Shown in pieces: positions 17,773 through 18,436 of a stretch of DNA of 36,976 nucleotides; position 1 is the first letter of the stretch, and the number at the start of each line of letters is the position of its first letter. The DNA is taken from contig JAUIDB010000036.1 in the NCBI GenBank assembly GCA_030429235.1, positions 1 through 36,976 of the forward strand, written 5' to 3'. The notes under the pieces were generated by a model. That model was not told the DNA's origin and ran no database searches. It saw nothing but the letters and a program-made list of their open reading frames with translations. The stretch is from Thermoanaerobaculia bacterium (GTDB lineage Bacteria; Acidobacteriota; Thermoanaerobaculia; Multivoradales; JAIOJS01). A program made the translations under genes and the position numbers.

Positions 17773-18309
17773 TCAGGGATCTGAGTCGGTCGAGTCTGCT
17801 TCCGGCTGCGCTTCCGCGGTCGCCGGTGGCACCTCGGGCAGCCTGGTCAAGGTGTCGTGACTGGCGATCACGTGCGCCCAGGATCCCTCGGCGACCGGGC
17901 GTACGACCAGGTCTTCGGTCTCCAAGCGAACCGCTCCCTCGACTTCGAGGCAGACGCCCGTCCAGTTGGTGATGCCGCCGAACTCGAGGAACGACACGGA
18001 GAAGCTCAGCGCCACCGCGTAGTGTCCGTCGTGGCGATCGCCCGGCTCGCGCGCCGCGTTGACGAAACCCGTGAGGGGAAACTGCCGGTCGGGCAGGGAG
18101 GCAGGCTGGTAGCTTCCCTCGAGTCGACCCGTGTCGGAATCGACCGCACGCAGGTTCACGAGGGCGCCCAGATTGGTGCGCCAACTGCCGGTGAGATCGG
18201 CGCAGCTGACAGGTTCTTGCGACCGACCCGAGTCGGCACCGAGCGGAGTCATCAGGCCTCCGAGCAGCAACCCGGCCGCCAGAGTCCTGCAGTACCAATC
18301 GAAACGCAT
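17773..18309 (-). CDS. Secreted avidin/streptavidin-family protein with altered biotin site
   Basis: A 178-residue protein with a signal peptide (residues 1 to about 25) and an avidin-type beta barrel. Matches to streptavidin and avidin, in order: LTGSWRTNLGA (39-49), LEGSY (63-67), FPLTGFVN (77-84), SFSVSF (102-107), NWTGVCLEVEG (115-125) and SWAHVIASHDTLTRL (143-157). By my alignment, streptavidin Tyr43, Trp92, Trp120 and Asp128 are kept as Tyr67, Trp116, Trp144 and Asp152. Asn23, Ser27, Trp79 and Trp108 are replaced by Thr45, Ala49, Phe107 and Asp133. Cys36 and Cys120 sit where chicken avidin has its Cys4-Cys83 disulfide. ATG 18309 has GGAGG 7 nt upstream. A Pro- and acid-rich tail ends the protein. 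The fold assignment is strong; biotin binding is doubtful. Confidence 0.83.
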   Translation of the reverse strand: MRFDWYCRTLAAGLLLGGLMTPLGADSGRSQEPVSCADLTGSWRTNLGALVNLRAVDSDTGRLEGSYQPASLPDRQFPLTGFVNAAREPGDRHDGHYAVALSFSVSFLEFGGITNWTGVCLEVEGAVRLETEDLVVRPVAEGSWAHVIASHDTLTRLPEVPPATAEAQPEADSTDSDP

Positions 18310-18325
18310 TCGTCGACCTCCGTCT

Positions 18326-18400: not shown

Positions 18401-18436
18401 TTGACATACTGTTTGTCGCACAGTACCATGCGAAAC
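18401..18436 (+). promoter_or_regulatory. PadR promoter with embedded operator, likely leaderless
   Basis: A consensus -35 TTGACA (18401-18406) is followed after 17 nt by TACCAT (18424-18429). The perfect inverted repeat TACTGT-N7-ACAGTA (18407-18425) fills the spacer and overlaps the -10, an ideal repressor position. ATG 18437 begins 7 nt after the -10 and no ribosome-binding site is present, so the mRNA is probably leaderless. Confidence 0.72.

Follow-up and report, generated by a model that had tools for sequence, protein, structure and literature searches.

Avidins are the standard textbook example of dedication to a single ligand, and natural switches of their specificity are hardly documented. 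In streptavidin, W120 caps the pocket of the neighbouring subunit. Avidin domains are also found in the fibropellins, animal mosaic proteins with EGF repeats. The fibropellins do not bind biotin, and binding by the bacterial Metavidins has been doubted (PMC8033661). The same survey lists avidins mainly from Actinobacteria, Proteobacteria and Bacteroidetes (PMC8033661); its text contains neither the string "Acidobacteri" nor "Kordiimonas". A full-text literature search returned no paper combining Kordiimonas with avidin, nor any combining Acidobacteriota, avidin and biotin-binding protein. Altered-pocket avidins are already known.

The gene studied lies in a contig of 36,976 nucleotides from a Thermoanaerobaculia bacterium, hereafter the window. 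It occupies positions 17773–18309 of the minus strand as a complete open reading frame of 178 codons (178 aa), with an ATG at 18309 and its stop at 17773. Read from the sequence, a Shine-Dalgarno-like GGAGG (18317–18321, minus strand) stands 7 nt before the ATG, and residues 1 to ~26 (18232–18309, minus strand) resemble a Sec-type signal peptide, with a basic start, the core TLAAGLLLGGLMTPL and the motif LGA/DS. The avidin domain, delimited by Pfam and the AlphaFold models, covers residues 36–156 in eight strands (17842–18204, minus strand), and is followed by an acidic Pro/Ala-rich C-terminal tail, residues 157–178 (17776–17841, minus strand), which the same-genus relative also carries and the Kordiimonas protein lacks. 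Signal peptide, avidin domain and acidic tail make up the whole protein, with no partner domain. A search of the window genome found no second avidin gene.

The preliminary description had proposed an avidin barrel with its strands in order, and both profile and structure comparisons bear this out. The Pfam Avidin family (PF01382) matches residues 39–153 with 45.1 bits against a curated cut-off of 24 (E = 1.5e-11). It is the sole family found, no other Pfam entry appearing in the 178-aa protein even at E ≤ 10, so that no lipocalin-like family matches better; NCBIfam gave no match. With phmmer against the PDB, streptavidin comes first (1.4e-5), followed by zebavidin, AVR4, xenavidin and bradavidin. 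The full-length AlphaFold model (mean pLDDT 67) displays the eight avidin strands in order, and the model of the core (residues 33–160; pLDDT 75, pTM 0.72) reproduces the same strands, both being single-chain models from three-sequence alignments that are adequate for the fold and not for pocket geometry. Foldseek searches of the PDB with these models returned only avidins as top matches (best E 2.5e-6). VIA gave a Z of 13.6 for the full model and of 15.4 for the core against avidin, over 116 residues at 2.2 Å; the core superposes on both avidin and streptavidin with Z ~15, without any competing family. Among viral proteins, the best match to the core model is the predicted fold of an avidin family protein of Pithovirus LCPAC201 (BFVD A0A481Z7D4).

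The pocket was compared in an alignment of 31 sequences, comprising streptavidin, avidin and 28 others beside the window protein, with streptavidin numbering. All coordinates that follow are on the minus strand. Asn23 is replaced by Thr45 (18175–18177), Ser27 by Ala49 (18163–18165), Trp79 by Phe107 (17989–17991) and Trp108 by Asp133 (17911–17913). These are the four substitutions listed in the preliminary description, and all of them hold in the larger alignment. To them are added Ser45 to Pro69, Asn49 to Pro73 in the loop between strands 3 and 4 (18091–18093), and Ser88 to Gly112 (17974–17976). Hence, the biotin contact set is not conserved: N23, S27, S45, N49, S88, W79 and W108 are all replaced. 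The kept contacts are Y43 (Tyr67), W92 (Trp116), W120 (Trp144) and D128 (Asp152), named correctly before, together with T90 (Thr114), which had not been noted. A slip of the alignment at Thr45–Asn46, in which Asn46 would stand for Asn23, was rejected, as the Trp43–Ala49 stretch is exactly as long as its counterpart in avidin. As had also been recognised, Cys36 (18202–18204) and Cys120 (17950–17952) align with avidin Cys4 and Cys83; Cys36 is invariant across the two-cysteine group described below and is the probable disulfide partner of Cys120.

Overall, the window protein shares with streptavidin and chicken avidin the eight-stranded barrel, the strand order, Y43, T90, W120, D128 and a signal peptide. 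It resembles streptavidin at Trp92 and avidin in the Cys4–Cys83 pair, but differs from both in the seven replaced contacts, with ~26% identity over the domain. Its closest canonical relatives (L027, L028 and L002) have in common with it the short W79–W92 loop, Cys36/Cys120 and His146; unlike it, they retain N23, S27, S45, W79, W92 and W108. As stated earlier, the pocket is mostly kept in bacterial avidins; this stands for N23, retained by 26 of the 27 sequences compared from outside the clade described below, and for S27, retained by all 27, but not for the tryptophans of the proteobacterial avidins L044–L048. In these, N23 and S27 are kept, W79 is Gly or Ala, T90 is Val and W92 is Tyr. The loss of W79 and W92 there means that pocket change among bacteria is not unique to the window protein; judged from the aligned residues, it is of a different and independent kind.

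Close relatives are rare. An avidin-profile search of 149 genomes of the class gave matches in six, with a close relative only in the same-genus genome (L003; contig JAIOJS010000150.1 of a Thermoanaerobaculia MAG; 52% identity). The window protein alone had no match among the GTDB contigs, whereas a scan of these contigs with the two-sequence alignment recovered one more close relative, in Kordiimonas gwangyangensis, a member of another phylum (~50% identity). Among 147 genomes of the Kordiimonas order, only this gene and the more distantly related L026 were found, and the clade gene is present once among the 29 genomes of the family. All three close members carry T/A/P/F/G/D at six altered positions and the same cysteines; position 45 differs among them (P, A, S). 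In the maximum-likelihood tree they form a clade (support 100/98) that L026 adjoins (93/91), and the clade and L026 fall inside a seven-sequence two-cysteine group (98/98), to which the window protein belongs both by its two Cys columns and by its place in the tree. This group also holds a canonical avidin of the same order (L002) and Xanthomonas and Burkholderia plasmid avidins (L027, L028), and its other members retain nearly the whole biotin pocket. In L026, N23, S27, Y43, W79, T90, W92, W120 and D128 are kept, but position 108 is occupied by Asp and position 88 by Ala.

The pocket is unusually constant within the clade. Across the three members, treated as three sequences with independent columns, 11 of the 12 columns of the pocket do not vary, compared with 52 of 121 in the domain (43%; hypergeometric P = 4e-4). 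None of the six altered pocket columns varies (P = 0.005). At 12 sites the clade has a fixed residue that its near relatives lack, and 5 of these sites are pocket columns (P = 0.002). The dN/dS ratio over the domain, between the window protein and its same-genus relative, is ~0.2, an approximate value given a dS of ~1.5, near saturation. Together, clade conservation and dN/dS speak against decay and for a new kind of constraint on the pocket. The same replacements occur in another phylum, and therefore the pocket has probably been put to another use.

As for biotin itself, the streptavidin subunit routinely employed as an inactive one carries N23A/S27D/S45A (PMC12219509), and avidin loses almost all binding when charged residues replace two of its tryptophans (PMC8033661). 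As N23A/S27D/S45A inactivates streptavidin and all three sites are changed here, high-affinity biotin binding is unlikely. We lean slightly towards a conserved, re-specified avidin-fold protein, exported and probably disulfide-stabilised, that would bind another small molecule. The barrel would be exported, as its N-terminal Sec-type sequence suggests, and may form the usual avidin oligomer, to judge from the kept W120. It would no longer hold biotin tightly, and a different small molecule would be bound in the altered pocket. The likely binding surface would comprise Tyr67, Thr114, Trp116, Trp144 and Asp152 with the new acid Asp133 at the Trp108 position, and a pocket floor containing Asp133 would be well matched by a ligand that bears a basic group or a hydrogen-bond donor. 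Another ligand, a biotin derivative and a structural barrel had all been suggested for this protein, and these are guesses that sequence cannot separate; that the altered pocket is conserved in two phyla speaks for another ligand, an argument drawn from a clade of three known members in which folding alone would keep some pocket columns constant.

A purely structural role comes next. The barrel would then act in the periplasm or extracellularly as a stable unit for oligomerisation or structure, without a small ligand, much as in fibropellins, a use we consider fairly unlikely. Non-binding fibropellin avidin domains are known and two changed aromatics suffice to abolish binding by avidin (PMC8033661), a loss through a charged residue that the Trp to Asp change at 108 resembles; the cysteines and the interface Trp120 are also kept. 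A barrel with only a structural task should, however, let its pocket drift, whereas the six altered positions are identical across two phyla. Fibropellin domains and bacterial Metavidins are like the window protein in that their avidin fold holds an altered biotin pocket, but the 178 residues contain no second domain of the mosaic type, only the signal peptide and, in two of the three members, the acidic tail. The clade may overlap the published Metavidins (PMC8033661).

It seems quite unlikely that biotin or a close derivative (desthiobiotin, biotin sulfoxide, biotin methyl ester or a biotin-like antimetabolite) is bound with lower, reversible affinity. Y43, T90, W92, W120 and D128 remain for weak binding, and weakened avidins are known, wild-type bradavidin having a Kd of ~0.3 uM (PMC3344845). 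The window genome also carries bioB, and the cell therefore probably makes its own biotin, which fits such a role. On the other hand, each of the seven changes takes away a contact or substitutes it: the N23, S27 and S45 positions of dead streptavidin (PMC12219509) are all changed, and four more contacts are lost. It is very improbable that the protein supplies its own ligand by placing the acidic C-terminal tail in the pocket, as bradavidin does with its Brad-tag. The Brad-tag and the C1 extension of streptavidin are precedents, and the window protein and its same-genus relative both have the tail; yet the tail is poorly conserved, the tailless Kordiimonas protein has an identical pocket at the altered set, and the new pocket residue Asp133 is acidic like the tail itself. 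Finally, lost contacts and a patchy distribution could point to a decaying former biotin binder, which is hardly credible against the intact frame, Shine-Dalgarno and signal sequence, the dN/dS of ~0.2 and the same changes retained in two phyla.

If the pocket has been re-specified for another small molecule, its history may be partly legible. The clade occurs in two phyla and is absent from nearly all relatives there, which suggests horizontal transfer of its gene. L026 is a plausible intermediate towards the altered pocket, and the simplest path would place W108D first and the other pocket changes later. Tentatively, and stopping just short of even confidence, we suggest that horizontally spread exported avidins switched from biotin to another small molecule in steps, beginning with Trp108 to Asp, and that L026 may be a living intermediate. 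A phage or plasmid origin was considered and rejected: there was no phage match and no viral contig relative, and the plasmid matches were canonical avidins only, at 27–33% identity. With a conserved clade at hand, together with close relatives of the canonical type and an intermediate that is probably a single step away, the evolution of avidin specificity becomes directly testable; the clade is also a natural scaffold on which binders of other ligands could be built.

The genes around the avidin-family gene differ in all three genomes, with no neighbour shared among them, and the context therefore gives no clue to the ligand. In the window, a PadR regulator is divergent, and genes for a 101-aa small membrane-type protein and for methyltransferase-like and sulfatase-like proteins lie downstream. 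In the same-genus genome, the end of a GH25 muramidase gene overlaps the avidin start, and in Kordiimonas a gene for a PAS_5 protein precedes the avidin-family gene. A good sigma-70-like promoter (TTGACA, 17 nt, TACCAT) spans 18401–18429 of the window, at the TTG listed as the PadR start; the true PadR start is therefore probably further in.

Several other avidins encountered in the searches have distinctive settings. In a same-phylum genome (L009, ~1501–1785), an avidin frame is broken by TGA and TAA, either as a decayed copy or through assembly errors. In a same-class genome (L006, 267–2274), an ORF that looks aspartic-peptidase-like by eye adjoins a two-part avidin-like ORF, a pairing that resembles the published protease–avidin pairing of the Extended and beta6 clades. 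The avidin of a Burkholderia glumae plasmid (L028, 1–3393) lies between type I polyketide synthase and MFS transporter genes, an arrangement that suggests a biosynthetic cluster including a biotin trap.
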